48,773 nt of DNA from a virus. The notes under the pieces were generated by a model, which was not told the origin of the DNA, searched no databases, and worked only from the letters and a program-made list of their open reading frames with translations. The first letter of the stretch is position 1. The number at the start of each line of letters is the position of its first letter. A program made the translations under genes and the position numbers. Positions 1 to 48,773 of this stretch are shown piece by piece. The stretch spans positions 1 through 48,773 of IMG/VR virus record IMGVR_UViG_3300046535_000240; one strand, 5' to 3'.

Positions 1-127
1 GACTAAGGTACTGACTGGAGTATTTTATATAGAGGCTACTTGGGAATGAAAAGAGATTAAATAGAGGTATTTAATATAAACGCAGCGATATAAGGGCTAA
101 CCCAAAGTTCTGCTCCGTACACAGTAC
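1..127. repeat. 134-bp duplicated control region, copy 1 (wraps the map end)
   Basis: With 48653-48659 from the other end of the map this forms a 134-bp sequence identical to 26208-26341. It is AT-rich against a GC-rich genome and lies between the divergent virion blocks (terS rightward, wedge gene leftward). Four related motifs are visible: CTAAGGTACT (3-12), ATAGAGGCTACT (29-40), ATAGAGGTATT (61-71) and ATAAGGGCTAA (90-100), 27-32 bp apart. TACTGTG at the left end is inverted as CACAGTA at the right end. Possible roles are a bidirectional promoter or activator region, or a replication origin. The repeat is seen; the function is inferred. Confidence 0.9.
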
Positions 128-135
128 CCCAGTAC

Positions 136-165
136 TTGACTAGGCAAGCTTCGGTTTGCGATAAA
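136..165 (+). promoter_or_regulatory. promoter for the rightward virion block
   Basis: TTGACT (136-141), an 18-bp spacer and GATAAA (160-165) lie just right of repeat copy 1 and about 40 bp before the terS start. CTAGGCAAG inside it (140-148) is also found right of repeat copy 2 (26353-26361). It carries no TTGCAC palindrome, unlike the 26.4 kb promoter, so it may depend on the repeat. Confidence 0.6.
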
Positions 166-9178: not shown

Positions 9179-9436
9179 ATGTGCATGACGGAATACATCA
9201 AAGAGCGTATGCAGGCAATGGAGCGCGATGCGCTCAAAGAGATCGAAATTCTCGACGACCTGTCATCGCTGATCACCACCTATCAAACGGCAGCCGAAAA
9301 CCTGCCGCGAGCCGGCGCGCTCGTCGCGCTGCTGCTCGGCATGCGTGCCGAGATTGTCGGGCGCAAGGCTACCTGTCAGCGTGTCATCGCCGACGCGAAT
9401 GCCATTCAGCGCGAGACGAAGGAAGTCGCAGCATGA
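9179..9436 (+). CDS. small hypothetical helical protein
   Basis: 85 residues, almost wholly alpha-helical and charged (KERMQAMERDALKEIEILDD), without a signal peptide, zinc motif or membrane segment. It is the first gene of a four-gene small-ORF cassette (9179-10101) with its own promoter. ATG 9185 is an alternative start. Its stop overlaps the next ATG. Family not recognised; cassette position suggests an accessory role rather than a virion part. Confidence 0.6.
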   Translation: MCMTEYIKERMQAMERDALKEIEILDDLSSLITTYQTAAENLPRAGALVALLLGMRAEIVGRKATCQRVIADANAIQRETKEVAA

Positions 9437-9663
9437 GACGCGCTGACAAACCACACATTTGCATGCGGCACCTTGCCGACGACGTGCGCACGGTGCGCAG
9501 CCCCGGATTCATCTTTTCCGGCCGCTTCTACCCGTTCGGCACACTTGCGACCGTGCGCAGGGCGCTGAATAACCGTCACAAGCGCGGCGCGCCGTTACCC
9601 GGTAACTTCCAGCACACGCTGTTCATTGCCGAGCACGGAGCAGACTATGACCGTGCAAACTGA
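9433..9663 (+). CDS. small basic hypothetical protein
   Basis: 76 residues starting at an ATGA overlap with the previous gene. It is rich in Arg and His (MRRADKPHICMRHLADDVRT), with aromatic patches (FIFSGRFYPFG). No known domain is recognised. The following gene starts before it ends, so the cassette is tightly coupled. The basic charge would suit nucleic-acid binding, but nothing in the sequence proves it. Confidence 0.55.
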   Translation: MRRADKPHICMRHLADDVRTVRSPGFIFSGRFYPFGTLATVRRALNNRHKRGAPLPGNFQHTLFIAEHGADYDRAN

Positions 9664-9955
9664 AGTCGCCGTCTGCGTCGAGCACGTCATCATGGGCTAC
9701 GCGGCCGATATCCATTGGAGCAATGGCGACCGCGAGCAATCGTTCCTGACGCTCGAAGAGCGCACGGAGCACACGACGGACAGCCGCATGTATTCCGCCG
9801 TGTTCTCGCCGCTGATCGCCTGTGCGACGAATCAGGCGTGCGCGTGGCTCGTCGACGGCACGTCGCCCGGCCCGTTTATCACTGGCGACCGTGCGATAGC
9901 TATGCGCTATCTCGATATCGGCTGCGACGTCACGTCACTCGGGAGGCCGCAATGA
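9647..9955 (+). CDS. small hypothetical protein
   Basis: 102 residues with start ATG 9647, chosen because GGAG lies 7 bases upstream; it overlaps the end of the previous gene by 17 bases. Mixed alpha/beta composition with three cysteines, no obvious metal site and no membrane segment. Its stop overlaps the next start (ATGA). Family not recognised. Confidence 0.55.
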   Translation: MTVQTEVAVCVEHVIMGYAADIHWSNGDREQSFLTLEERTEHTTDSRMYSAVFSPLIACATNQACAWLVDGTSPGPFITGDRAIAMRYLDIGCDVTSLGRPQ

Positions 9956-10101
9956 AGCCGCACATCTTCTTCGACGGCGAGAAGTGGTTATGGACGGTGC
10001 GCCCGTCGGCCTTCGTTCAGCCGACTGCGTGGTATGTTACAACGCAATTCTGTCGCGTCATGAACGAGAAACGCGCGATGCAGTATTTTACGAAAGGGTA
10101 A
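9952..10101 (+). CDS. very small hypothetical protein
   Basis: 49 residues (MKPHIFFDGEKWLWTVRPSA...), beginning at an ATGA overlap with the gene before it. It is aromatic-rich and likely a small folded domain of unknown role. Its 3' end contains the -35 box of the next promoter. Coupling and codon use support it as a real gene despite its length. Confidence 0.5.
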   Translation: MKPHIFFDGEKWLWTVRPSAFVQPTAWYVTTQFCRVMNEKRAMQYFTKG

Positions 10102-10138
10102 CTTTCCGCTAAACTTACCGGGCCGCTACGTGCGGCCC
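10087..10138 (+). promoter_or_regulatory. promoter followed at once by a GC hairpin
   Basis: TTTACG (10087-10092), a 17-bp spacer and TAAACT (10110-10115), with an expected start near 10122. The hairpin GGGCCGC-TACGT-GCGGCCC (10120-10138) would form the very 5' end of the mRNA. It is followed by a T-rich stretch and GGAG for the gene at 10162. It could also act as an intrinsic terminator for read-through from upstream. Confidence 0.6.
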
Positions 10139-10161
10139 TTTCACTTTTGGAGAATCGAATA

Positions 10162-10560
10162 ATGGCAACCGCAAAGAAGCGCGCCGGCAACGACACGGTT
10201 CGTGTCGCCTGCAAACTGCCCCAGGGCATCACCGTTCGAATTCCGCCGGTCGGCGACTATCGCGAGCGTTTCATCAAGCTACACGGGCGCTATTCGCGCT
10301 TTGCCGTCGCCGAGCACGGCATGACGAACATTTCGGCCGATGACTGGCTGGCGATCCAGATGTGCCACGCCGACGCGCTGTGGCTGCAGAACGAGCACGT
10401 CTTCGCGTTGCCCGACGCTGATAGCGTCGCAGACAAGGCCGAAGAGCGCGCGGACGTCAACGCCGGATTCAACAAAATCGATCCGAAGAATCCGAACGAG
10501 ACGCGCGGCGCGAGTATCATTCAGCCGGAAGGCGCAGCCGATTTGCCCCCGACGCGTTAA
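10162..10560 (+). CDS. hypothetical protein of the connector region
   Basis: 132 residues with start ATG 10162 behind GGAG. The first 70 residues carry a beta-strand pattern (VRVACKLPQGITVRIPPVGDYRERF) and a helical DDWLAIQMCHADALWLQNEHVF stretch. The tail is acidic and Asn-rich. Similar short proteins stand just before the DUF4054 connector gene in related phages, so a small virion or assembly role is plausible. Not identified from sequence. Confidence 0.6.
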   Translation: MATAKKRAGNDTVRVACKLPQGITVRIPPVGDYRERFIKLHGRYSRFAVAEHGMTNISADDWLAIQMCHADALWLQNEHVFALPDADSVADKAEERADVNAGFNKIDPKNPNETRGASIIQPEGAADLPPTR

Positions 10561-10586
10561 GCGCAACATCACGGAGATAGGCCGCT

Positions 10587-11054
10587 ATGGCTGTCATCAC
10601 ATTCGACCCGTCTGACTTCAAAGCGACCTATCCCGAATTCGCCGCAGTGAGCGACGCGCGCTGTACGATCATGTTCACGATCGCCGAGCAATCGATTCTC
10701 GACAACACGGACGGATCGCCCGTGATGGACGTCGACTATCGGACGCAGCTTTTCTACATGCTGATCGCGCACTTGCTGCTGATCTTTGGCGTCTCTGATA
10801 CGCCGACGGCGAACAACACGCCGCCGGGTCGCATCAGCAACGCGACCGAAGGCACGGTTAGTTTCGCGTCAGAATACAAGGTGCCGGAAGGGTCAATGAT
10901 GGCTGCCTGGTTCCTGCAGACGAAGTACGGCGCGATGTTTTGGACCGTTACAGCACGCTTCCGCTCGGCGACGTATATCGCCCTGGGCGGTTCGGGCGTC
11001 GGCTTCTCAAAGGCGTTCGGCGTGCCGGTTCCGAACGTGCCTGGGGGCATTTGA
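10587..11054 (+). CDS. head-tail adaptor (DUF4054)
   Basis: 155 residues with a good ribosome site (CGGAG). The opening TFDPSDFKATYPEFAAVSDA and the helical YRTQLFYMLIAHLLLIFG are typical of the DUF4054 adaptor family, whose members bind under the portal like HK97 gp6/SPP1 gp15. The C-terminal half contains the usual VSFASEYKVPEGSMMAAWFLQTKYG segment. It begins the connector set that continues to 12622. Confidence 0.82.
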   Translation: MAVITFDPSDFKATYPEFAAVSDARCTIMFTIAEQSILDNTDGSPVMDVDYRTQLFYMLIAHLLLIFGVSDTPTANNTPPGRISNATEGTVSFASEYKVPEGSMMAAWFLQTKYGAMFWTVTARFRSATYIALGGSGVGFSKAFGVPVPNVPGGI

Positions 11055-11140
11055 TGTTTCAGTTGCTCGACGCCCTGCGCAAACTTCAATCCCTGATCGC
11101 GGCTTTCGGCCGCTTTCAGCGTTGGTTGTCACGCAAATGA
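11054..11140 (+). CDS. 28-residue linking peptide gene
   Basis: MFQLLDALRKLQSLIAAFGR... is an amphipathic basic helix of 28 residues. Its ATG overlaps the stop of the adaptor gene (TGATG) and its stop overlaps the next ATG (ATGA). It may be a true small protein or a coupling device carrying ribosomes to the gene at 11137. Only coding-like overlaps support it. Confidence 0.4.
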   Translation: MFQLLDALRKLQSLIAAFGRFQRWLSRK

Positions 11141-11616
11141 GCGTCACGCGTCGCGGGCTCAACTTGCCTGATAGTCTCGACTATCAATCGATGGGCGTGA
11201 AAGCGGGCGTGCTCGCGAACGCGACCTATCCGCCGTTGATGGTGCGCAACGCGAAGACGGGCGCAGACTTCCCTGATCCGCGTGCCGGCATGCACGTCGC
11301 GACGATCGCCGCCTCGCTCGAATACGGCACGTCCAAAGCGCCCGCCAGGCCGTTCATGCAGACGACCGTCGCAGCGCATAGGCAGGAATGGGTCGACGGC
11401 GTGGTGACGCTCCTGACGAACGGAATGTCGCTCTCTGAGGCGTTCATGACGATCGGCCAGGTGATGAAAGAAGACATTCAGCACACAATCAATTCATGGC
11501 CCGCCGACAACAAAGAAGACTGGGCCGAAGTGAAGGGCTTCAATAAGGGCTTGATTTGGACATCGCACTTGCTGAAGTCGATCGAATCCGAAGTCTATGA
11601 CGTGGACGAAGAATGA
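11137..11616 (+). CDS. neck protein, HK97 gp10-like
   Basis: 159 residues. The VATIAASLEYGTSKAPARPFMQTTVAAHRQEW segment (about 54-85) is the conserved core of HK97 gp10-type connector or tail-completion proteins. Position after the DUF4054 adaptor agrees. It starts at an ATGA overlap and overlaps the following gene in the same way. In the family it joins the filled head to the tail. Confidence 0.72.
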   Translation: MSVTRRGLNLPDSLDYQSMGVKAGVLANATYPPLMVRNAKTGADFPDPRAGMHVATIAASLEYGTSKAPARPFMQTTVAAHRQEWVDGVVTLLTNGMSLSEAFMTIGQVMKEDIQHTINSWPADNKEDWAEVKGFNKGLIWTSHLLKSIESEVYDVDEE

Positions 11617-12059
11617 ATCTCAACATGCACGACATAATTCGTGGCGCAATCACTGCGATCAACGAAGATACGCCCGGCACGGTCTACGTCTCGACCGGCC
11701 GTACGAACGTGCGCGGCATCCTGACGCCGACATTCGCGCCCGTCGCGGCTATGCTGCAGATGCAGGCGCAGAAGCACGACCCACTGCGGCACGAGGAAGG
11801 CGTACAGCGCGACGCGTCGTATCTGACGGTCTATGCCTATGGCAACTTTTCCGACCTGGATCGGCCGTCAAACAATGGCGGTTCCGTCGTGTACGTGCCG
11901 GGGCCGTCTAATCGCGCCGGCTGGTATCTGGTGACGCAAATTTTGGAGTGGTGGGGCGAGAATCAACCGTCTTGGTGCGCGCTTGAAGTGACGCAGCAGC
12001 TTAACGCGGCGACGATCGCCGATTACGTCAAGAATATCGCGAACGGAGCGAATCCATAA
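11613..12059 (+). CDS. head closure / neck protein (putative)
   Basis: 148 residues of a beta-rich small protein (GTVYVSTGRTNVRGILTPTFA, then RDASYLTVYAYGNFS). It is coupled to the gp10-like gene by ATGA and shares one base with the next start. Its place between gp10-like and tail-terminator-like genes suggests a stopper or closure protein. Sequence alone does not place it in a named family. Confidence 0.55.
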   Translation: MNLNMHDIIRGAITAINEDTPGTVYVSTGRTNVRGILTPTFAPVAAMLQMQAQKHDPLRHEEGVQRDASYLTVYAYGNFSDLDRPSNNGGSVVYVPGPSNRAGWYLVTQILEWWGENQPSWCALEVTQQLNAATIADYVKNIANGANP

Positions 12060-17919: not shown

Positions 17920-18213
17920 TTACGCGGGTTGTTTCTCTGCGCGCGCGGCTTGGCGCGCGTCGTGCATTTTCTTCATGATGCCGAGTTTGTAGCGGCAGGC
18001 CACTTCTTTCGAGCGCACGGCTTCGATCAGCGTCATGACGCGCGCGGCGCTCAGGACGTTCGTGTTGCGGATCGTGTAGATCGCGCGCGCCGACGTGTTG
18101 AGCAGTTCGGCGGATTCGGTCACGCCGAGCGCATCGGTCAATTCGGCGATCGTCAAGTCTTCAAGCGCGACCGTCTGATAGTCGATGTCACGCAATTTCT
18201 TCGCGGCTTTCAT
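17920..18213 (-). CDS. putative helix-turn-helix regulator (Cro-like size)
   Basis: 97 residues and basic. Residues 21-55 (TIAELTDALGVTESAELLNT..., then SARAIYTIRNTNVLS) read as a helix-turn-helix, followed by a helical, lysine-rich end. It is the first gene behind its own promoter at 18.25 kb and leads a four-gene leftward group. It is a candidate for the protein that binds the TTGCAC palindromes at 26.2 kb, but there is no direct evidence. Confidence 0.55.
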   Translation of the reverse strand: MKAAKKLRDIDYQTVALEDLTIAELTDALGVTESAELLNTSARAIYTIRNTNVLSAARVMTLIEAVRSKEVACRYKLGIMKKMHDARQAARAEKQPA

Positions 18214-18225
18214 TTCATTCCTCGT

Positions 18226-18278
18226 ATTTGGTAATTGGTACGTGAGGCGAGTGTAACGATAGCCGCGCTCTATGTCAA
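18226..18278 (-). promoter_or_regulatory. promoter with inverted repeat before the HTH gene
   Basis: On the minus strand TTGACA (18278-18273), a 17-bp spacer and TACACT (18255-18250). CCTC-AC-GTA just past the -10 pairs with TACGAGG, with a two-base bulge. The second arm includes the GAGG ribosome site of the gene starting at 18213, so the leader could hide it. Confidence 0.65.
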
Positions 18279-18292
18279 CACAAGGTAAAGTT

Positions 18293-20814: not shown

Positions 20815-22644
20815 TCAATAGCTCGGGTCGTATCTAAAGCTTGCCATTTGCTCCTGGCGGACGAAGCGCAACTCCGTGATGTACACACGCCCGTCTTCGT
20901 ACTTCGTGAGCGTGATATCAAGCGGCTTCGGAATAATTTCGCGCATCAGCAGCGCGCGATATGCCTCGCTCGGCGGGTTGTTGCCCGTCGCCGCTTTCCA
21001 CAACTTGCGCGACTGTGCATAGAATTTGTTGTCTGCCGTCGATCGGTCAAAGTCCAGGCGCAGCGTGTACGGGCCGAAGTCCGTCACAAAGTCGAACGTG
21101 AGGATGCTGTTGCCCGATGGCGTCACGCGCATTTCGTTGACGGGCAGCTGGCGCTGCTCACGGCATGCTTCGTCTTTGAGCACGACGCTTTCTTCGTCGT
21201 GAATCTCGTACCCTTCGCCATCACCGATGCCGCGCTTGGCCGAATCACGCTTCTGGCGCAGCGCTAGAAAGCCCTGGCGCGGCCGGCCGCACTGGCGGCA
21301 CGTCATGTGCTCGGCATCGTTCAGGAAGCCGCAGGCAGCCGCGTCGGGTTCCATAAGCGACAGAATCAGCCGGATATCCGTCTCGGGCTGATCCGGCGAA
21401 TTGACCGGGAAACGAATGCTCGACTTTTCGCGTTTTGGACGATCGCGCCCGCCGGCAGCGACGGGCGTTTCGATCACGGCGTCTGTGCACTCCCACAAAC
21501 CCAGGCGTGAATCACCGCTACCGATTTCCTCGTTGATCGCGCCGTGACGCGCGAAGTTGCCGCCGGCGTCGAGCACAAGAATGTTTTCTTTGTCGGGATA
21601 GGGGCGCAGACCGCGCCCGACGATCTGTCGCCAGAGCACGAGCGAGCGCGTCGGGCGCAGCGAGACGATACAGTCGACAAACTTTGCGTTGAAGCCCGTC
21701 GTGAGCATGGCAACGCTCACGATGTGCCGATGTTGCTTCTTGAGATAGGCTTCGATGCCGTCGACGCGCTCGCTCTTTTCAAGCTGGCCGTGAATGATCA
21801 CGACGGATTCGCCGGCGTCGCGCAACGCGTCTTCGATCATGCGCGCATGGTCGATGTTGACCGCGAACCACATGAAGTGCTTGCGATCCGGTGCGTTTTC
21901 GAGCGCGACCGTCACGCACTCGCGCGTCACGCGCATCGCGACTTCGGCAAGCTGCGCCTCGTCGAAGTCGCCGCCCTTCGTCTTGACTTCTGACGTGTCG
22001 ATCTGCGGAAAGCGCAGCGACGGCGCAACGACTGGCGAAATATAGCCTTCGCGCACGAGACGGTTAAAGTTGCGCCCGGCCGTCAAGTCGTACACCTTCG
22101 CATCGAACAGGCCGCATTCCGTCAAGGGTACGACTTTCAAACCCTTCATGCGAAAGGGTGTCGCAGTCAGGCCAATGAAACGGACGTGCGGGTTAGCCTT
22201 GCGTAGTTCGTTGACGATCGCCGCGCCCGTCTTCATGCCGATGTCGAAGACGTGCGCCTCGTCAATCAAAACAAAATCGATCTTGCCAAAGCGTTTCGCC
22301 TGGCGCGCGACTGACTGCGGCGTGCCGATCGTGATCTGCTGCAGGCGCTCTTTCATGCCGAGCCCTGCGCAGTAGATGCCGACACGCGACGTCAGCGCCG
22401 GCGAGAGATAGCCGTAAGCCTCGTCGGCATTTTGCTTGACGAGTTCCATCGAAGGCGCGAGCACCATCGTGCGCGCGCCGGGCCATTGCTGCGCGATGCG
22501 CTCTGCGATCATGGCGCACATGAGCGCCTTGCCGCCGCCGGTAACAATCGCGGCGAGTGGATTGACGTTCGCCGCCGTCATGAGTGCATCCATGATCGAG
22601 TCGACGGCTTCTGATTGATACCAACGCGGGGTAAGACGTGGCAT
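20815..22644 (-). CDS. superfamily 2 DEAH helicase
   Basis: 609 residues. Q-motif-like WYQSEAV (8-14), Walker A TGGGKA (35-40), DEAH box (128-131), motif III-like GLTATPF and motif VI QIVGRGLRP are all present. A Cys pair (CGFLN, then CRQCG) near residue 435-455 may bind zinc. This type unwinds DNA in phage replication or repair. The start at 22644 has no Shine-Dalgarno sequence and follows a strong leftward terminator, which is odd for a core gene. Confidence 0.93.
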   Translation of the reverse strand: MPRLTPRWYQSEAVDSIMDALMTAANVNPLAAIVTGGGKALMCAMIAERIAQQWPGARTMVLAPSMELVKQNADEAYGYLSPALTSRVGIYCAGLGMKERLQQITIGTPQSVARQAKRFGKIDFVLIDEAHVFDIGMKTGAAIVNELRKANPHVRFIGLTATPFRMKGLKVVPLTECGLFDAKVYDLTAGRNFNRLVREGYISPVVAPSLRFPQIDTSEVKTKGGDFDEAQLAEVAMRVTRECVTVALENAPDRKHFMWFAVNIDHARMIEDALRDAGESVVIIHGQLEKSERVDGIEAYLKKQHRHIVSVAMLTTGFNAKFVDCIVSLRPTRSLVLWRQIVGRGLRPYPDKENILVLDAGGNFARHGAINEEIGSGDSRLGLWECTDAVIETPVAAGGRDRPKREKSSIRFPVNSPDQPETDIRLILSLMEPDAAACGFLNDAEHMTCRQCGRPRQGFLALRQKRDSAKRGIGDGEGYEIHDEESVVLKDEACREQRQLPVNEMRVTPSGNSILTFDFVTDFGPYTLRLDFDRSTADNKFYAQSRKLWKAATGNNPPSEAYRALLMREIIPKPLDITLTKYEDGRVYITELRFVRQEQMASFRYDPSY

Positions 22645-23202: not shown

Positions 23203-25698
23203 TTATGCTATCGCCTCTTTGTTGTTAAACGGATTGTTGACGAATGGTAAAACATTTGTCTCGTCTTCGTCAATATATTCTTTCGGCGCAATGTACATCG
23301 GGTAGCCGTGGCCGTCTACCTTTCTTTCCCATCCGCGCGTCTTCAACCAAGCCGCGATCTGCTGCGCCCGGAAGGTGCGCCCGCTCGGCGACGCATCGAG
23401 CGCCTTGCGCACCTCGCCCGACATCACACGGCGCTTGCCACTCTGTGCGGTCAGCGTGCGCAGAATCGGCGGCATCAAATCGTCCAGGTCGGACGCCGGC
23501 GTGCCCTCGCCGCGCAGCATGGCCGCGTCGTTGTATTCCTTCACCGCACCGGCGCAGTCGTCGACGAGTTTCAGATAAACGTCCAGGTCGCGACAAAAGC
23601 GCTCGCGCGCTTCGGCGAACACCTGCAGACCTTCGGCACGCCAGGCCGGGAGAATTTCTTGATTCACGAACACGGGAAACAAGCGGCGCTCGCCAGTCGC
23701 GTCGCGGTTCAACTCGTATTTGTTCGACGTGCCGATGCAGACGAACCTGCGCAAGTGGCGCTCGGCATACTCGCCGTAGGGCGCGCGATAGACGTCTTCG
23801 GTATCCGTAATCCACGTCTTGACGTCTTCGTTATCGCGCTTGCTCAGACCCGACATTTCGGCGAGTTCCGCGATCGGCGATACGCACGCGGCCTGACACA
23901 TTTTGATCGAATCGCCGAACGTCACGGCGGCCGGGCGCGGGAAGTCGAGCAGTTCGGCGAGTTGGTGCACGAATCGCGTTTTGCCAAGTTTGCCTGCGCC
24001 GATCAGCACCGGCACGACGGGGCACTGCGCGCCCGGCTGCAATTGGCGCATGATGATGCCGGCGAACAGCAATTGACCCGTCAGCACGAGCGCATCGCAC
24101 GGCAACGAGCCCATATTGTCTTGAAAAAACGTGTCAAGACGCGGCACACCGTCCCATTTCGGAATGGTCGCAATTTTGTCTTTCCACGGGTCGAACGTGT
24201 TCGTTTTAGCCATGTTTTTCATGACTTTCTCGATCGCGTCGATGCTTACGCCGATGCAGCCGATGTGCGACGCGGCATCCTGCAGCGCGATCATAGACGG
24301 CAATTCGTCGCTCACTTCGCGCCGGCCGGTCGTTGCGTCCGTGCGAGGCATGCAGTCAATCGCTTCGAGCAAAAGGCGCATAGCCATCGTCAGGTTGCGC
24401 TCAGTCGGGCCGCGCTTGCTCATGGGCTCAGGATACTCGACGCAGCCCGCCAGGCGCTCAGCGGCCTGATCCAGCGGCGAGGCGATGTTTGCCGCAGCGT
24501 CTTCTGTGAACTCAAAGAAGCGTTGCAGCTTGTGCGACCACACGCCGACCTTATCGCCCTGCATCACGATTTCGGCCTTCGTGCAGTGCGCGGGCGTCAA
24601 GTCGTCGCGCCATGAATCGAACGGGTCAGCGCACTGGTGCCCGAGCGACGCCGGCAGCGCGTCGATCACTTGGCGCACGGTCTGCACGCCGATATCCTTG
24701 ATGAACAGCGCCCAATCAGTCGGAAGTTTTTCATCGCCGAGCGCGCGAATAGCCATCAGGCCGCGCCGCTCGCCTTCGACTGCATCGTAGCCGCTCGCGA
24801 TAGCCTGCTCTTTCTGATAGTTCAGGGCTATCGCCTTCGCCTGCTTGCGTTGCGCATTGCGCGCGTCTCGCACGGCGGCATAAAAGCGCCGCGATTCAAT
24901 CTCGCGCACTTTCGGCATTGCGCCGGCGTCGAGCACGCCGTCAACGACGTAGTTATACGGCCGGCCGCGCCCGCCGTCGGGCCCGCGCTCGACGAAGTGC
25001 TGATCGATCGGAATTTCGCGCTCGACGCCTTTAAGCACCGGGCTCGATTCAAACATCAGGCGCGAAGGTTGATACACGAGCGCATCGCTAATCTGACGCA
25101 CGAGCAACGCGCCAGATTTTGAAATTTTGATCCAGCCTTTGTTTTTAGCCCATTGCTCGATCTGCACGCGATCGGCAAGCGCTTTGATGTCGCTGCCTGC
25201 CGTCACGGCGAAATAGACATGCACGCCGCGCAGGCCGCGCCCGGCGACATACGACGACGACGAAGGGCGCGCGACGCGATGCAGTGCGCGCATCCATGGA
25301 TGACAGTCTTCGAGCGCATCGAGTGCGTCTTGCACGGTCGCAAAGCGTGCGTGCTTGTCGTCGACATCGATGTCGATCGGAAAGAGCGTGGGGCCGTTCG
25401 GAAAGGTAAAAGACTCGTTCGTTCGTGCGACTGCATCGGAGCGCACTTCCGCGCCGGCGCGCGTCGTGAGCGGCGTATCGCCCGCATAGGGTACGCCGCA
25501 GGTGATCGCCTGATTCGGCTGCAGCAACGGCAGCAAAGAACAAAGTTGTCCGACGTGATCAATCTCGACGACGCGCGCGACGCCCTGCGTCATGTGTGCG
25601 ATTGCCGTGCTTTCGATGTTGCCGTGCGCGTCCCGTGAAAATGTCTTCGTCAGTTCGCAGTCAGTCGATGTGATCTGCGTAAATTTAATCTTTGTCAT
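23203..25698 (-). CDS. primase-helicase, AEP-like N-terminus with VirE-type ATPase
   Basis: 831 residues. The N-terminal third looks like an archaeo-eukaryotic primase: LFPIDIDVDD (105-114) offers the catalytic acidic pair and SSSYVAGRGLRGVHVYF (147-163) the partner His strand. The C-terminal half is a VirE/D5-like ATPase with Walker A GAGKLGKTR (567-575), then ELAEMSGLSKRDNEDVKTWI and RFVCIGTSNKYELNRDATGERR, typical of that family. It should prime and unwind DNA at the fork for the downstream polymerase. The ribosome site is weak. Confidence 0.85.
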   Translation of the reverse strand: MTKIKFTQITSTDCELTKTFSRDAHGNIESTAIAHMTQGVARVVEIDHVGQLCSLLPLLQPNQAITCGVPYAGDTPLTTRAGAEVRSDAVARTNESFTFPNGPTLFPIDIDVDDKHARFATVQDALDALEDCHPWMRALHRVARPSSSSYVAGRGLRGVHVYFAVTAGSDIKALADRVQIEQWAKNKGWIKISKSGALLVRQISDALVYQPSRLMFESSPVLKGVEREIPIDQHFVERGPDGGRGRPYNYVVDGVLDAGAMPKVREIESRRFYAAVRDARNAQRKQAKAIALNYQKEQAIASGYDAVEGERRGLMAIRALGDEKLPTDWALFIKDIGVQTVRQVIDALPASLGHQCADPFDSWRDDLTPAHCTKAEIVMQGDKVGVWSHKLQRFFEFTEDAAANIASPLDQAAERLAGCVEYPEPMSKRGPTERNLTMAMRLLLEAIDCMPRTDATTGRREVSDELPSMIALQDAASHIGCIGVSIDAIEKVMKNMAKTNTFDPWKDKIATIPKWDGVPRLDTFFQDNMGSLPCDALVLTGQLLFAGIIMRQLQPGAQCPVVPVLIGAGKLGKTRFVHQLAELLDFPRPAAVTFGDSIKMCQAACVSPIAELAEMSGLSKRDNEDVKTWITDTEDVYRAPYGEYAERHLRRFVCIGTSNKYELNRDATGERRLFPVFVNQEILPAWRAEGLQVFAEARERFCRDLDVYLKLVDDCAGAVKEYNDAAMLRGEGTPASDLDDLMPPILRTLTAQSGKRRVMSGEVRKALDASPSGRTFRAQQIAAWLKTRGWERKVDGHGYPMYIAPKEYIDEDETNVLPFVNNPFNNKEAIA

Positions 25699-26193: not shown

Positions 26194-26207
26194 GTTTCGT
26201 CACGGCG

Positions 26208-26341
26208 TACTGTGGACTAAGGTACTGACTGGAGTATTTTATATAGAGGCTACTTGGGAATGAAAAGAGATTAAATAGAGGTATTTAATATAAACGCAGC
26301 GATATAAGGGCTAACCCAAAGTTCTGCTCCGTACACAGTAC
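26208..26341. repeat. 134-bp duplicated control region, copy 2
   Basis: Identical, base for base, to 48653-48659 plus 1-127, in the same orientation. It lies between the divergent early blocks B and C. GTACTGTG (26207-26214) and CACAGTAC (26334-26341) are inverted ends. The same four spaced AGG motifs are inside. Full identity of 134 bp at two divergent sites implies functional selection, recent copying or gene conversion. Confidence 0.95.
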
Positions 26342-26373
26342 ACAGTAGCTGCCTAGGCAAGTTTCTGACCAAA

Positions 26374-26405
26374 TCTTGCACATTCTGCAAGACTTGCGCT
26401 AAGAT
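26374..26405 (+). promoter_or_regulatory. early rightward promoter with operator
   Basis: TTGCAC (26376-26381), an 18-bp spacer and TAAGAT (26400-26405), 32 bp before the nuclease gene start. The inverted repeat TCTTGCACATTCTGCAAGA (26374-26392) covers the -35 and half the spacer. It shares the TTGCA half-site with the operator on the other side of the repeat, so one protein may control both. Confidence 0.7.
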
Positions 26406-26437: not shown

Positions 26438-27625
26438 ATGTCGAATCCCGTCGTGATTCACTCGAAATTGTCGTTTTCGGGGCGCGAAAGGTGGGCTGCA
26501 TGCCCTGCGTCCGTGCATCTTTCCGAAGGCGTGCGCGATACGAGCGGGCCGGCCGCTGCCGAGGGCACCTGCGCGCATACGGTAGCCGAGTTCTACGCTC
26601 GTCAGGCGTTCAACCTGGACGGCGCACAACCCGGCGTTGCCCCGCTGCAGCACTTCCCGGAAGGCTTCGACCCGCAAGGGCAGACGTTGGAGCAATGGAA
26701 TGACGACTTGCGCACGCACGGCATGAACTACGCTCGCTTCATCGCAGCGCAAATTGTCGCAGTCGGCGCGGCGCCCGCCGAGGCGTTCATCATGCTCGAA
26801 CTGAAAGTCTCGATTCCGTCGATTCACCCTAACCTGTTCGGCACCGCCGATTGCGTCGTCTGGATTCCACGTCTACGCCTGCTGATCGTGATCGATTACA
26901 AGTACGGCTTCGGCTATGTTTCGATCGGCACCGTCGACGACACGAACCCGCAATTGTCCGCGTATCTCGTCGCCGCTGCCGAGAAGCTGCCGGAACCCCC
27001 GCTCGCGATGCGCGTCGCAGTCTATCAACCGCGCTTGCCTGGCGAACCCACAAAGCCGCTCGACTTGCCGGCCGAATGGTTGCAGCGCGAGCGCTTGAAG
27101 TTGCGCGACGAGTCGAGCGCCGTCGACGCGCCGAACGCCGTGCAAAACGTCAAGCCCGGCGATCACTGTCGCTACTGCAAAGGCAAGACGAAGTGTCCTC
27201 AGACGCACAATGCCGTTTCCACGGCAATACAGGCGCATAGCGGGCTTGTTGACCTTCGGACAATACCCGACGACCTAGTAGCGCAATTGTGGGCTTCTAG
27301 AACCGCATTTAAGGCTTTTTGGGAAGACATCGAAGAGCGCGTCGAAAAGATGGTCGCGACGGGTTCGCCGAAATTCACCGTGAAGGTGAGCGAAGGCCGG
27401 CAAATGTGGGCTGATCCGAAGAATGCCGCGCTGTACCTGCTCGCGATGAATCGGCATGATCTGCTCGCGCCGGTTGCAATCAGCGAAGCATTGCCGCACC
27501 TGCCGGCCGAACTGCGCGCCGCGCTCGTCAAGCGCTCAAAGGGCGCGCGAACGATCGTCGCCGTCGAAGGCGATCAGCCGCACGTGCTCGCGTCGACTTT
27601 TGCCAAGTTCGCGAAGAAAGATTGA
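26438..27625 (+). CDS. RecB/Cas4-like nuclease (DUF2800)
   Basis: 395 residues of the PD-(D/E)xK type. Glu121, Asp138 (GTADCVVW), Asp153 and Lys155 (VIDYKYG) form the active site pattern. Cys22 with Cys244, Cys247 and Cys253 (HCRYCKGKTKC) give the four-cysteine arrangement that holds an iron-sulfur cluster in AddB/Cas4-like nucleases. In phages this family is usually linked to the DUF2815 SSB, here three genes downstream. It is the first rightward early gene; DNA processing for recombination or replication is likely. Confidence 0.85.
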   Translation: MSNPVVIHSKLSFSGRERWAACPASVHLSEGVRDTSGPAAAEGTCAHTVAEFYARQAFNLDGAQPGVAPLQHFPEGFDPQGQTLEQWNDDLRTHGMNYARFIAAQIVAVGAAPAEAFIMLELKVSIPSIHPNLFGTADCVVWIPRLRLLIVIDYKYGFGYVSIGTVDDTNPQLSAYLVAAAEKLPEPPLAMRVAVYQPRLPGEPTKPLDLPAEWLQRERLKLRDESSAVDAPNAVQNVKPGDHCRYCKGKTKCPQTHNAVSTAIQAHSGLVDLRTIPDDLVAQLWASRTAFKAFWEDIEERVEKMVATGSPKFTVKVSEGRQMWADPKNAALYLLAMNRHDLLAPVAISEALPHLPAELRAALVKRSKGARTIVAVEGDQPHVLASTFAKFAKKD

Positions 27626-27684
27626 TGATATGACGAAACGGGACTAAGATACGCGCTCAGTCCCGTTTAAACACTTTGACCGCC

Positions 27685-28803
27685 ATGAACGAACAAATCA
27701 CGCAGAGCATTGTTTCGCAAGTTGCACTCCTGGACACTTCCGACCTCGACAGCCTTGTCGAGTCGCTCAACGCCGTGCGCGCAGCGCTGCACGAAATTTC
27801 GCCGTTTAAGACCGAACCAGTCGACTTCGTGAAGTGGGTCAAAAACACGACGGTCTACGCGAATGACTACAATCCGAATAGCGTCGCGCCGCCGGAAATG
27901 GAATTGCTGCGCCTGTCGATTGAAGCAGACGGCTACACGCAGCCGATCGTTGCGATGCCAGACGGCGATGGACAACACGAAGTGATCGACGGTTTCCACC
28001 GTCACCGCGTCGGCAAGGAGATGCCCGACATTCAGCAGCGTGTCAGAGGCTACCTGCCGTGCGTGATGATTAAAGAAGATCGCAAGGACAAGGCCGATCG
28101 AATGGCGTCGACCGTGCGCCACAACCGCGCGCGCGGCAAACACGCTGTCACGGCAATGTCGGACATCGTGATCGAACTGAAGCGCCGGAACTGGACGGAT
28201 AACAAGATCGCGAAGAATCTCGGTATGGATGCCGACGAAGTTTTGCGCCTTTGCCAAATCAGCGGCCTGAGTGAACTGTTCGCCGATCAGGAGTTCTCAA
28301 AGTCCTGGGACGTGGAACATTTCGAAGAGGCGTTTGTTCCGCTCGCAGAAGAAGACGGTACGGCCACGCCCGAACTAGAGCCCGGCCGCATCCTGCACAC
28401 GTTTGAGCATTGGGAATGCTATCCGGCGGGCTTCTACAACGATCACCCGCCGGAAGGTATGACGCGCGAGGATTGCGAAGAGACATACCGCAAGCTGCTT
28501 GCAGACATTCCTGCATTTGAAGCGGCATTGTCAACAGTCGTGCTCACCTGGGAAAAGAGTTGCGAGCATTACTTGACGAACGAACGCATGAATCGTATCG
28601 CGTGGCTCGGACAAGCGGCGCTGTGTGTCGCGCACGGCATCCCGTCGACGTTTCGCGGAGGCTATAACCTTCTCACTCCCGATCAACAAAAACTAGCGGA
28701 CGAAGCGGCGTTGCGGGCTTTAAACTTCTGGCGCGCTCTCAATGGGCGCAGCGAACTGACAATGGGCGACGTCCAATCCAAGACTGAAGCTAACCTCTAC
28801 TGA
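27685..28803 (+). CDS. ParB/Srx-fold protein, IbrB-like
   Basis: 372 residues; ATG 27685 chosen over an upstream TTG at 27676. Residues about 60-115 hold the ParB/Srx core, with GYTQPIVAMPD and the EVIDGFHRHRVGKE motif. A helix-turn-helix-like WTDNKIAKNLGMDADEVLRL follows (about 173-192). The last 150 residues form an additional helical domain I do not recognise. It precedes a PAPS-reductase-like gene, exactly the IbrB/IbrA pairing known from E. coli and many phages. The reaction is unproven. Confidence 0.82.
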   Translation: MNEQITQSIVSQVALLDTSDLDSLVESLNAVRAALHEISPFKTEPVDFVKWVKNTTVYANDYNPNSVAPPEMELLRLSIEADGYTQPIVAMPDGDGQHEVIDGFHRHRVGKEMPDIQQRVRGYLPCVMIKEDRKDKADRMASTVRHNRARGKHAVTAMSDIVIELKRRNWTDNKIAKNLGMDADEVLRLCQISGLSELFADQEFSKSWDVEHFEEAFVPLAEEDGTATPELEPGRILHTFEHWECYPAGFYNDHPPEGMTREDCEETYRKLLADIPAFEAALSTVVLTWEKSCEHYLTNERMNRIAWLGQAALCVAHGIPSTFRGGYNLLTPDQQKLADEAALRALNFWRALNGRSELTMGDVQSKTEANLY

Positions 28804-28808
28804 ATGCT

Positions 28809-30008
28809 ATGAAACTGAAGAAATATAACGAGACAGACGTACTGACGGCCGCGCGCGAACGCATCGCGTACACCTTCGACAACTTCGAAAAAGTGTACGT
28901 GTCGTTCAGCGGCGGCAAGGATAGCTCCGTCATGCTGCACTTGGTGCTCGACGAAGCGAAGCGGCGCGGGCGCACTGTCGGCGTGCTCGTGATCGATCTC
29001 GAAGCGCAGTACAAGGCGACGATCGCGCACGTCGAGCAAATGGCGGAGTTGTACGTGGATAACATCGACCTGCATTGGGTCTGTGTGCCACTGCTGCTGC
29101 GCAATGCCGTAACGCACTTCGAGCCGCGCTGGATGTGCTGGGACCCTGCGAGGAAAGACATTTGGGTCCGCGACATGCCGAAGTGCGCGAAGACCGAACG
29201 CGATTACCCCTGGTTCGTGCCGGGCATGGAATTCGAAGAACTAACGATCGCTTGGGGTTTGTGGTATGCCGGCGGCGCGCGCACGGCCGGTTTCGTTGGC
29301 ATCCGCGCCGACGAGAGTCTGAACCGATTCCGCACGATTGCGGTTTTCACCAAAGAGACGTTTCAAGGGAAACGCTTTACAACGAAGATTGACGAGGAAC
29401 TTTACAATGTCTACCCCATCTACGATTGGCGCACCGAAGACATCTGGCGATTTCACGCACGATTCCCCGAGCTTCCTCACAATGAAATTTATGATCAGAT
29501 GCAAAAGGCCGGTGTCAGTATTCACCAGCAGCGACTTTGCCAGCCGTATGGAGATGATCAACGGCGTGGACTGTGGCTTTATCACATTCTCGAGCCCGAC
29601 ACCTGGTTCAAACTGATTGCGCGCGTCAATGGTGCGAATTCGGGCGCGCTGTACATCAACGAAACCGGCAACATGACCGGCTACAACAAGATCAGCAAGC
29701 CCGACGGGCACACCTGGAAATCGTTCTGCAATCTGTTGTTGCAGTCGATGCCAGAAAAGACGCGCGAGCACTATATCTCGCGGTTCCGCTCGTTCATGAA
29801 GGGCTGGCGCACGCGGGGTTATGCCGTCATCCCTGATGAAGCGCCGAAGGTGCTAGAGGACAAGCATTGGGCTCCGTCCTGGCGTCGCATGTGCAAGGTG
29901 CTGCTGCGTAACGACCACTGGTGCAAAGGGCTCGGCATGACGCAGCCAAAGAGCGAAGCATACGGGCGCTATCTCGAAATGAAGAAAGGCCAGAAAGAAA
30001 ACGCTTGA
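28809..30008 (+). CDS. PAPS reductase-like PP-loop protein, IbrA-like (DUF3440)
   Basis: 399 residues. The PP-loop SFSGGKDSS (32-40) binds and splits ATP; GFVGIRADESLNRFR and YPIYDWRTEDIWRF follow in the order seen in DUF3440/IbrA proteins. There is no ferredoxin or sulfite-reductase partner, so normal sulfate assimilation is unlikely. The start lies 5 bases past the partner's stop and is preceded by a three-codon frame (ATG CTA TGA), with no clear ribosome site, so coupling is likely. With the ParB-like partner it could modify DNA or a nucleotide. Confidence 0.85.
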   Translation: MKLKKYNETDVLTAARERIAYTFDNFEKVYVSFSGGKDSSVMLHLVLDEAKRRGRTVGVLVIDLEAQYKATIAHVEQMAELYVDNIDLHWVCVPLLLRNAVTHFEPRWMCWDPARKDIWVRDMPKCAKTERDYPWFVPGMEFEELTIAWGLWYAGGARTAGFVGIRADESLNRFRTIAVFTKETFQGKRFTTKIDEELYNVYPIYDWRTEDIWRFHARFPELPHNEIYDQMQKAGVSIHQQRLCQPYGDDQRRGLWLYHILEPDTWFKLIARVNGANSGALYINETGNMTGYNKISKPDGHTWKSFCNLLLQSMPEKTREHYISRFRSFMKGWRTRGYAVIPDEAPKVLEDKHWAPSWRRMCKVLLRNDHWCKGLGMTQPKSEAYGRYLEMKKGQKENA

Positions 30009-30119
30009 CTTTGTTTTAGCTAATCCTTAAAGTTTCGTTACCGCAGCACGGAACACGACTCTCCTAGTTCGGTCAACCGACATTGTCTGGACCTAGCCCG
30101 TGCTGCGGATTCTGAAACT
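30005..30119 (+). promoter_or_regulatory. promoter and large structured leader of the SSB gene
   Basis: TTGACT (30005-30010, containing the preceding stop codon), a 17-bp spacer and TAAAGT (30028-30033), with a start expected near 30040. CCGCAGCACGG (30041-30051) pairs perfectly with CCGTGCTGCGG (30098-30108). An outer AGTTTC/GAAACT (30031-30036, 30114-30119) and an inner TCGG-TCAA-CCGA hairpin add to it. The mRNA would open with an 11-bp stem closing a 46-base folded loop. Confidence 0.7.
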
Positions 30120-30146
30120 TAAACTCTTGATTCTAAAGGTATCTCA

Positions 30147-30848
30147 ATGTCTCAAATCGCCGAACACGTCGCAATCCTCGCCTCGCACTCGCTCGCGCAG
30201 GCAACGCCGAACAAAATGAAGGGCGGCAAGCTCGAATACTACGCCGTGCTCGCTTTCCCGCCGGCCGCTGGCGCGGATCTGTTCGCGCTCATGACGTCCG
30301 TTGCCGCTGGCGGCGACGTCTCGAAGTACGAGCACAGCGTGAAGCAAAATCAGCACACGTCGAAGCCGATCGCAGGCATTCCGGGCGACTGGCTGATCGT
30401 GCGCGCCGCGACGCAATTTCCTCCGTATCTCGCCGACACAACCGGCGCGCAGTTGGCGCAAGGCTCGCAATCGGGCGAGACGCTGATTCGTCAAACGTTC
30501 TACGCCGGCAAGCGCGTTCGTGCTGCGCTGAACGCTTTCACGTGGGAATTCAAGGGTAAGCACGGCATTTCGTTCAATCCCGACGGTATCATGGATGCGG
30601 GCGAAGCGGGTGAACGCCTGAACATCGGCGGCGGTGCGACGGTCAACGCGTTCCAGAAGTACGCGAATCCGAACGCCGCGCCGGCCGTTCAGCCCGGTGC
30701 GAATGCTCAGGAAGCCAGCGCGCCGGTGCAGCAAGGTAACCCGTTCGGCACCGTCGGCGGCAATACAACGAGCGCAGGCACGGCCGGTGCCGACCCTTTC
30801 GCGCAGCGCCCGCCGGCAAACGCGAACCCGTTCGCCCAGCAAGCCTGA
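30147..30848 (+). CDS. single-stranded DNA-binding protein (DUF2815)
   Basis: 233 residues. The N-terminal 150 residues follow the DUF2815 SSB pattern, an OB-fold protein usually partnered with DUF2800, as here. The Pro/Gln/Ala/Gly-rich tail contains NPFGTVGG, DPFAQRPPA and ends NPFAQQA. This is a low-complexity linker with repeated (N/D)PF motifs in place of the acidic tip of bacterial SSB. It should coat DNA made by the phage replisome. Confidence 0.82.
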   Translation: MSQIAEHVAILASHSLAQATPNKMKGGKLEYYAVLAFPPAAGADLFALMTSVAAGGDVSKYEHSVKQNQHTSKPIAGIPGDWLIVRAATQFPPYLADTTGAQLAQGSQSGETLIRQTFYAGKRVRAALNAFTWEFKGKHGISFNPDGIMDAGEAGERLNIGGGATVNAFQKYANPNAAPAVQPGANAQEASAPVQQGNPFGTVGGNTTSAGTAGADPFAQRPPANANPFAQQA

Positions 30849-48589: not shown

Positions 48590-48652
48590 GCGCGCAATGA
48601 TAGCCGACGTTCGAACGCCGGGCAAACGCATTTCTGGCACGCTGCTTGCTTA

Positions 48653-48773
48653 TACTGTGGACTAAGGTACTGACTGGAGTATTTTATATAGAGGCTACTT
48701 GGGAATGAAAAGAGATTAAATAGAGGTATTTAATATAAACGCAGCGATATAAGGGCTAACCCAAAGTTCTGCT
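48653..48773. repeat. right map end: same sequence as the left end
   Basis: 48660-48773 equals 1-114 exactly, so the map closes into a circle or carries a terminal overlap. 48653-48659 (TACTGTG) extends repeat copy 1 on its left, matching 26208-26214. On the minus strand, TATAAG (48655-48650) offers a -10-like box for block D, but no good -35 lies behind it. Confidence 0.92.

Follow-up and report, generated by a model that had tools for sequence, protein, structure and literature searches.

A duplicated 134-bp sequence at the divergent gene boundaries of a Bcep781-like phage: a candidate pair of iteron replicators

Satellite phage P4 possesses two separate cis-acting sites, ori and crr, and a single primase-helicase initiator. 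Chromosomal islands with initiators of the pri-rep kind use replication origins in which two arms enclose a core, and in Gram-positive islands the origin sits directly 3' of the initiator gene (PMC6092414). Bcep781-like phages, as far as the accessible part of their description goes, have four gene clusters on alternate strands and circularly permuted genomes (PMC2771037). Here, we analyze a 134-bp sequence present twice in the IMG/VR virus record IMGVR_UViG_3300046535_000240 (48,773 bases, all of which was analyzed and is referred to below as the window), which represents a Bcep781-like phage (Naesvirus and relatives). With modest confidence, and on the strength of sequence comparisons, we favor the view that this sequence and its second copy act as paired iteron replicators.

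The nearest named relatives of the window are the Burkholderia phages Bcep781, Bcep43, Bcep1 and BcepNY3 (Naesvirus), together with several Xanthomonas phages, some of which belong to the genus Beograduvirus (Kantovirinae). Homologous head, tail, replication and exonuclease blocks are present, and the gene order consists of four blocks on alternate strands (head, tail, replication, exonuclease/lysis). The window has the published four-cluster layout and belongs to the group; the accessible text of PMC2771037 mentions neither the repeats nor the other pairing of blocks, which characterizes the branch of the window.

The repeat pair in the window

Positions 26208-26341 are identical, with 0 mismatches and in the same orientation, to 48653-48659 followed by 1-127. 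The match far exceeds chance expectation and agrees with an earlier note on this DNA, made from the sequence alone, which had described a perfect direct duplication about half a genome apart. Since the two ends of the record share 114 bp (1-114 repeats 48660-48773), there are two copies rather than three, and no further copy of the element was found in the window. Also as that note stated, each copy lies between divergent gene blocks, namely, replication and exonuclease/lysis at 26.2 kb and tail and head at 0/48.7 kb, and the element is AT-rich (62% AT, in a genome with a GC content of ~60%).

Searches of phage records with the element and its flanks gave no match, and an exact 31-base word of the element was found, among viral contigs, in a single sibling contig that is 93.9% identical to the window over 45 kb. 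The sibling contains the same pair; relative to the window, its copies differ at 0 and 2 of the 134 positions. Both are internal and have unique flanks, and the contig ends fall in the tail block. This contig, together with the pairs that cultured relatives have of their own, makes it very unlikely that the second copy is an assembly error.

As an observation, the earlier description stands apart from one feature. The four AGG-centered motifs are visible, but do not constitute evidence, since an equally good fourfold motif occurs in 20 of 200 dinucleotide shuffles. The inverted 8-bp ends are present in copy 1 (GTACTGTG at 26207-26214 and CACAGTAC at 26334-26341), whereas copy 2 starts with ATACTGTG.

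Paired repeats in related phages

We surveyed 37 records, 30 of which (22/27 and 8/10), the window and its sibling included, have both divergent boundaries; G003, G004, G005, G007, G011, G038 and G039 were left out because their two sites are not both whole. Relatives were drawn from at least 80 loci in one listing and 30 in another, from which 27 and 12, mostly longer contigs, were selected; 9 and 10 records from these loci entered the survey and six further records served as controls. A repeat common to both divergent boundaries is found in all 30 genomes, which are not independent and represent ~13 lineages. The comparison of both copies across relatives proposed in the earlier note reveals such a pair in 30/30 genomes. 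Most of the shared repeats are ~115-430 bp long with 91-100% identity (519 bp and 82% in G032). The pairs are weak in G008 (50 bp, 86%) and Xhv1 (79 bp, 95%), and one of the XapPhi3 copies is truncated where the record stops (127 bp).

Most lineages have elements unrelated to those of the others, whereas little change is seen within a lineage. For example, no match longer than 13 bases between the elements of the Bcep phages and Xhv5 is present among the matches listed. No motif common to the lineages emerged, since the most widespread 6-, 7- and 8-mers (10 lineages) were matched by at least 1 of 15 shuffle sets. In six distant terminase relatives (G019, G020, G021, G023, G026 and G028), for which blocks were called mechanically and, in G019 and G021, the best 12 repeats per record were examined, no repeat pair was seen at two divergent boundaries. 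These controls encode no close relative of the primase-helicase, with G026 having a 25% match over part of the protein. Tandem arrays in G020, G023 and G028 were considered as iterons and rejected, as their 15-base units resemble coding pentapeptide repeats in a consensus reading.

Within lineages the element is strongly conserved, as judged from comparison with four-fold degenerate sites. Between the window and the sibling, the elements differ at 0-2 of 134 positions, against 78-87% identity at the four-fold sites of three genes. For Bcep781 and BcepNY3, there are 3 differences in ~260 positions at each site, compared with 76-89% identity at four-fold sites, and the elements of G012 and G035, the terminase alleles of which are far apart, differ at 2-4 of ~188 positions, against 80% in primase and helicase. 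Perfect identity of the two copies is not a general trait: copies within one genome differ at 0 positions (window, BsXeu269) to 24/385 (G030), that is, by 0 to ~6%, with the copies of Xhv28 and Xhv1 entering this comparison without a full-length alignment. Gene conversion or strong selection had been offered as explanations. Bcep1 and BcepNY3 have 0 differences at each site and 3 between the two sites; since the same site can be more alike across phages than the two sites are within a phage, the likeness of the copies in the Bcep phages is due to constraint rather than to constant gene conversion.

In three sets of phages (XapPhi1 vs XapPhi3/4, Xhv7 vs Xhv5, and G012 vs G035), the large-terminase gene is 63-68% identical, while the aligned parts are 90-99% identical and the adjoining element is nearly unchanged. 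There is a suggestive indication that the element may track the primase rather than the neighboring terminase allele.

The boundaries themselves are of two kinds. Head|exonuclease and tail|replication boundaries are found in 21/30 genomes, and tail|head and replication|exonuclease boundaries in the other 9, including the window. Inverting the half with the head and replication blocks, with breakpoints at both elements, converts one pairing into the other. The copies are in direct orientation in 22/30 genomes and inverted in 8/30, G008 being scored on 50 bp. On a midpoint-rooted tree of six proteins (FastTree support of 0.93-1.00 for the splits between lineages), the blocks were re-paired on at least two occasions, and on at least four the copies switched their relative orientation. 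G009, in which the copies are inverted and the pairing is that of the window, branches next to the Bcep phages (support 0.99). Given these changes, the function seems to be tied neither to the orientation of the element nor to the flanking blocks. Direct copies could in principle recombine and split the circle, as envisaged earlier, but what the relatives display is half-genome inversion at the two sites.

Element plan and candidate initiator

The elements consist of an AT-rich core and short words clustered in inverted arms, a plan that is sharper in some lineages than in others. In copy 1 of the window, GTACTG occurs twice in the left arm and, in the right arm, once intact and once in a degenerate form; in copy 2, one intact and one degenerate word on the left face two on the right (Table 1). 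The sibling retains the outer right-hand GTACTG copy situated just outside the perfect repeat. Words are similarly opposed in other lineages: G009 has three tandem 9-base units per side, Bcep781 has clusters of TGACAGAT, G008 has ATCCCACC, and G029-G033 share a GTACGGAGG-type word in opposed arms. The proportion of a word's occurrences that fall at the two sites is 14/15 for TGACAGAT in Bcep781, 10/10 for ATCCCACC in G008, 8/8 for TTAACAA in G012, 5/5 for GTAGAGCTC in G013, 8/11 for ACAGACG in G009 and 6/14 for GTACTG in the window. The words are largely confined to the sites in these genomes, and less so in KPhi1 (4/9) and Xhv7 (6/22).

Arm tests were run on 17 stretches and a long-inverted-repeat test on 13, with the limits of the stretches set by eye after viewing the sequences, which makes the figures generous. 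The best 6-base word common to the left arm and the reverse-complemented right arm, compared with dinucleotide shuffles (n = 400), beats the shuffles in 15/17 stretches (at most 20/400), including the window copies (1/400 and 7/400) and those of the sibling (0/400 and 3/400); in G034 the best word is the low-complexity TATATA, and XapPhi1 (253/400) and G013 (41/400) do not pass. The count of shared 6-mers exceeds shuffles in 13/17 stretches, among them copy 2 of the window (8/400); copy 1 (22/400), KPhi1 (109/400), Xhv7 (40/400) and G033 (97/400) are not above them. One long inverted repeat exceeds all shuffles in 8/13 sequences, the window element (14/60) not being among them.

The window encodes a candidate helicase initiator of the pri-rep kind, an 831-residue primase-helicase, relatives of which are annotated as DNA primase. 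Its sole solved relative by sequence is PDB 7pds (3.3e-24). A structure model built from 28 sequences (mean predicted local distance difference test score, pLDDT, of 81; predicted template modeling score, pTM, of 0.53) has PriRep1 with double-stranded DNA as its top Foldseek match (5.5e-17). The fold match covers 373 residues (Z 23.6, root mean square deviation 5.2; model residues 420-811), followed by the NrS-1, SaPI5 and African swine fever virus (ASFV) primase-helicases. The C-terminal helices and strands are read as a winged helix in the model. The window and BcepNY3 proteins are 65% identical in the N-terminal part and 59% in the helicase, but 29% in the pre-helicase linker and 40% in the C-terminal part. 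Divergence concentrated in the latter two would be expected if DNA recognition changes, which is no proof that it does. In G013 (IMGVR_UViG_2974786762_000001), the primase-helicase match at 9244-11729 is split over two reading frames that meet near residues 526-531.

Similarity to P4 would lie in the combination of two cis sites with one primase-helicase initiator; the phage and the protein differ. With the phage-inducible chromosomal islands (PICIs) and Staphylococcus aureus pathogenicity islands (SaPIs) that have pri-rep initiators, the window shares the arm-core-arm plan and the helicase and C-terminal part of the primase-helicase, which match PriRep1 (PMC6092414; PDB 7pds). Unlike them, it is a Bcep781-like phage and has two copies, separated by half a genome.

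Table 1. Coordinates of the repeat elements and associated features in the window
Feature	Position	Strand	Remarks
Repeat element, copy 1	26208..26341	+	Between replication (-) and exonuclease/lysis (+) blocks; identical to copy 2
Repeat element, copy 2, right end of record	48653..48773	+	Between tail (-) and head (+) blocks
Repeat element, copy 2, continued across record ends	1..127	+	1-114 repeats 48660-48773
Left arm, copy 1	26207..26227	+	GTACTG at 26207-26212 and 26222-26227
AT-rich core between arms	26232..26320	.	Limits by eye
Right arm, copy 1	26334..26347	-	CAGTAC at 26336-26341 (GTACTG on - strand), then degenerate CAGTAG
GTACTG in left arm, copy 2	8..13 (= 48667-48672)	+	Outer left word degenerate (ATACTG)
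Right arm, copy 2	122..135	-	CAGTAC at 122-127 and 130-135, the second just beyond the perfect repeat
Primase-helicase with VapE-like domain, presumed initiator	23203..25698	-	Pfam VapE-like 8.5e-36; 7pds 3.3e-24; PriRep1 fold match
Sigma70-like site toward exonuclease block, outside element	26376..26405	+	TTGCAC-18-TAAGAT, by eye
Sigma70-like site toward head block, outside element	136..165	+	TTGACT-18-GATAAA; 9/200 shuffles as good
Sigma70-like site toward tail block, outside element	48597..48625	-	TTGCCC-17-TATCAT; 2/200 shuffles as good

Replication, transcription and other explanations

In the proposed mechanism, the GTACTG words in the inverted arms would be bound by a protein, most likely the primase-helicase that the phage encodes, which would open the AT-rich core and load itself there, so that replication would begin at both points. 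We infer the binding, the melting, the start of replication and the action of both copies as origins rather than as one origin and a helper site. As the four gene blocks run away from both points, transcription would go with the forks at least near the elements. Replicators are favored by the way the element is built, by the constraint on it, by the protein, and by the fact that neither orientation nor neighboring blocks seem to matter. A role in transcription is favored by there being two copies and by their constant position between divergent operons, and a combined role in replication and transcription is possible.

Several observations weigh against replicators. One origin suffices for a genome, and two copies at divergent boundaries are more simply explained by a function in transcription. 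The inverted ends of the window element alone are not significant (14/60 shuffles); KPhi1, Xhv7, XapPhi1 and G013 match the iteron plan less clearly. A test of strand bias at four-fold sites, restricted to orthologous genes in 14 genomes, found no step at the mid-points between the elements. As for the initiator, Pfam and NCBIfam name no primase domain in its N-terminal half, and the pTM of the model is low. Copy 1 lies ~510 bp upstream of the start of the primase-helicase gene (25698) and copy 2 half a genome from that gene. Neither is directly 3' of it, and we therefore do not classify the elements as PICI origins but only as possibly working like one. A strand-skew step at the arc mid-points that had been seen earlier was discarded as a product of mechanical open reading frame sets, since it is gone with orthologous genes alone.

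The principal competing explanation, which we consider rather unlikely, is shared transcription control, whereby a phage or host regulator would bind the repeated words and control four divergent operons, with a copy needed at each boundary. It accounts directly for the existence of two copies and for the location of repeats between divergent blocks in 30/30 genomes, and some elements have promoter-like sequences at their edges, so that a protein bound at the element could act on both sides. These sequences were sought in 28 flanks excised manually from 11 genomes. At the 5% level, sigma70-like sites are present in 3/11 flanks on the exonuclease side and 3/8 on the replication side, with two more near-misses each, and a TTACACT-like sequence is present in 7/9 head or tail flanks but absent from those of the window. 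Within the window, the head and tail flanks are significant, whereas the exonuclease flank, where the best match of the scan (TGCACA-17-TAAGAT) is no better than shuffles (51/200), and the replication flank (113/200) are not. In XapPhi1 and Xhv7, a promoter-like site lies within the longer repeat, outside the core. Inside the elements, in contrast, 26 scans (13 elements) yielded no sigma70-like site at the 5% level; as the scans covered sigma70-like sites only, they argue with moderate force against promoters within the element. In addition, copies of the window type are identical even though one faces replication and exonuclease/lysis and the other head and tail. No regulator was recognized among the 17 window proteins scanned, which gave only ParB-like, RusA, PAPS-reductase-like, Gp2.5-like and enzyme matches. 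Of the two readings offered in the earlier note, an origin with iterons thus fits better than a two-way promoter or activator region linking early and late control: with timing deduced from gene content, an early-late switch does not fit, because identical copies face either only replication and exonuclease/lysis or only head and tail.

A sigma54-type sequence, TGGCACG-N4-TTGCW, occurs once each in the window (48635-48650, +), the sibling (46840, -) and G011 (14705, -). In all three it directly adjoins the element located between the tail and head blocks, but the side on which it lies in the window is opposite to that in G011. Two more among the 17 genomes scanned (G032 and Bcep781) have the sequence away from the element.

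The remaining explanations are far less probable. That the repeats are a recombination or inversion site kept to rearrange the genome is very unlikely: at least two half-genome inversions break at the two sites and the copies are inverted in 8/30 genomes, but in the 22 with direct copies the outcome of recombination would be a split circle, not an inversion, no site-specific recombinase was recognized among the 17 window proteins scanned, and ordinary homologous recombination between repeats suffices. A packaging (pac) site, for which one could cite that one copy adjoins the terminase genes in both arrangements, is slightly less plausible still, given that the other copy is half a genome away. 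According to the accessible text of PMC13190192, PhageTerm found neither terminal repeats nor cohesive ends in Beograduvirus relatives, a result with which pac packaging is still compatible. We give the smallest chance to a non-autonomous insertion element resembling a miniature inverted-repeat transposable element that landed twice. It would explain the sharp ends at short inverted repeats (CTGTG/CACAG) and the TA that adjoins the ends of both copies, but other lineages have unrelated pairs at the same two places and no third copy was found in the window.

Returning to replicators, a broader and more tentative proposal, to which we assign less than even weight, is that this phage group carries two orientation-free, matched replicators from which the gene blocks run outward, and that these hardly change within a lineage, are replaced at both sites between lineages and serve as breakpoints of half-genome inversion; under the same proposal, replicator turnover would shape gene order. 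If true, these phages, some of which are in culture (Bcep781, KPhi1 and others), would offer a compact system that joins two origins, an initiator and transcription direction, and both pairings of gene blocks would be accounted for. It would also raise the evolutionary question of how a sequence under strong constraint within lineages comes to be replaced at two sites. Paired repeats are not mentioned in the accessible parts of the literature on these phages (PMC6123377, PMC13168109, PMC11324598, PMC2771037, PMC13190192), and no paper about them was among the titles listed by keyword searches. Within the literature searched, there seems to be no precedent for the group-wide rule, for the turnover or for inversion at these sites; the repeat of the Bcep phages may already be in print, as the founding Bcep781 paper lies outside the literature covered.

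Some observations concern other features of these genomes. Scans of the window with Rfam (gathering thresholds) and for tRNAs gave no match. Exact 127-bp tandem duplications in Xhv5 (29926-30179), Xhv28 (29305-29558) and Xhv1 (11012-11265) may be assembly artifacts, 127 being a usual assembler k-mer. In Xhv5, other repeats of ~50-80 bp (18210-18283, 20904-20960 and 26910-26979) coincide with the 3' ends of the polymerase, helicase and primase genes or lie close to them, and similar repeats are present in KPhi1, phiXaf18, G012 and G038. Finally, at 27676-30008 the exonuclease block of the window contains a ParB-like gene and, after it, a PAPS-reductase/DUF3440 gene.
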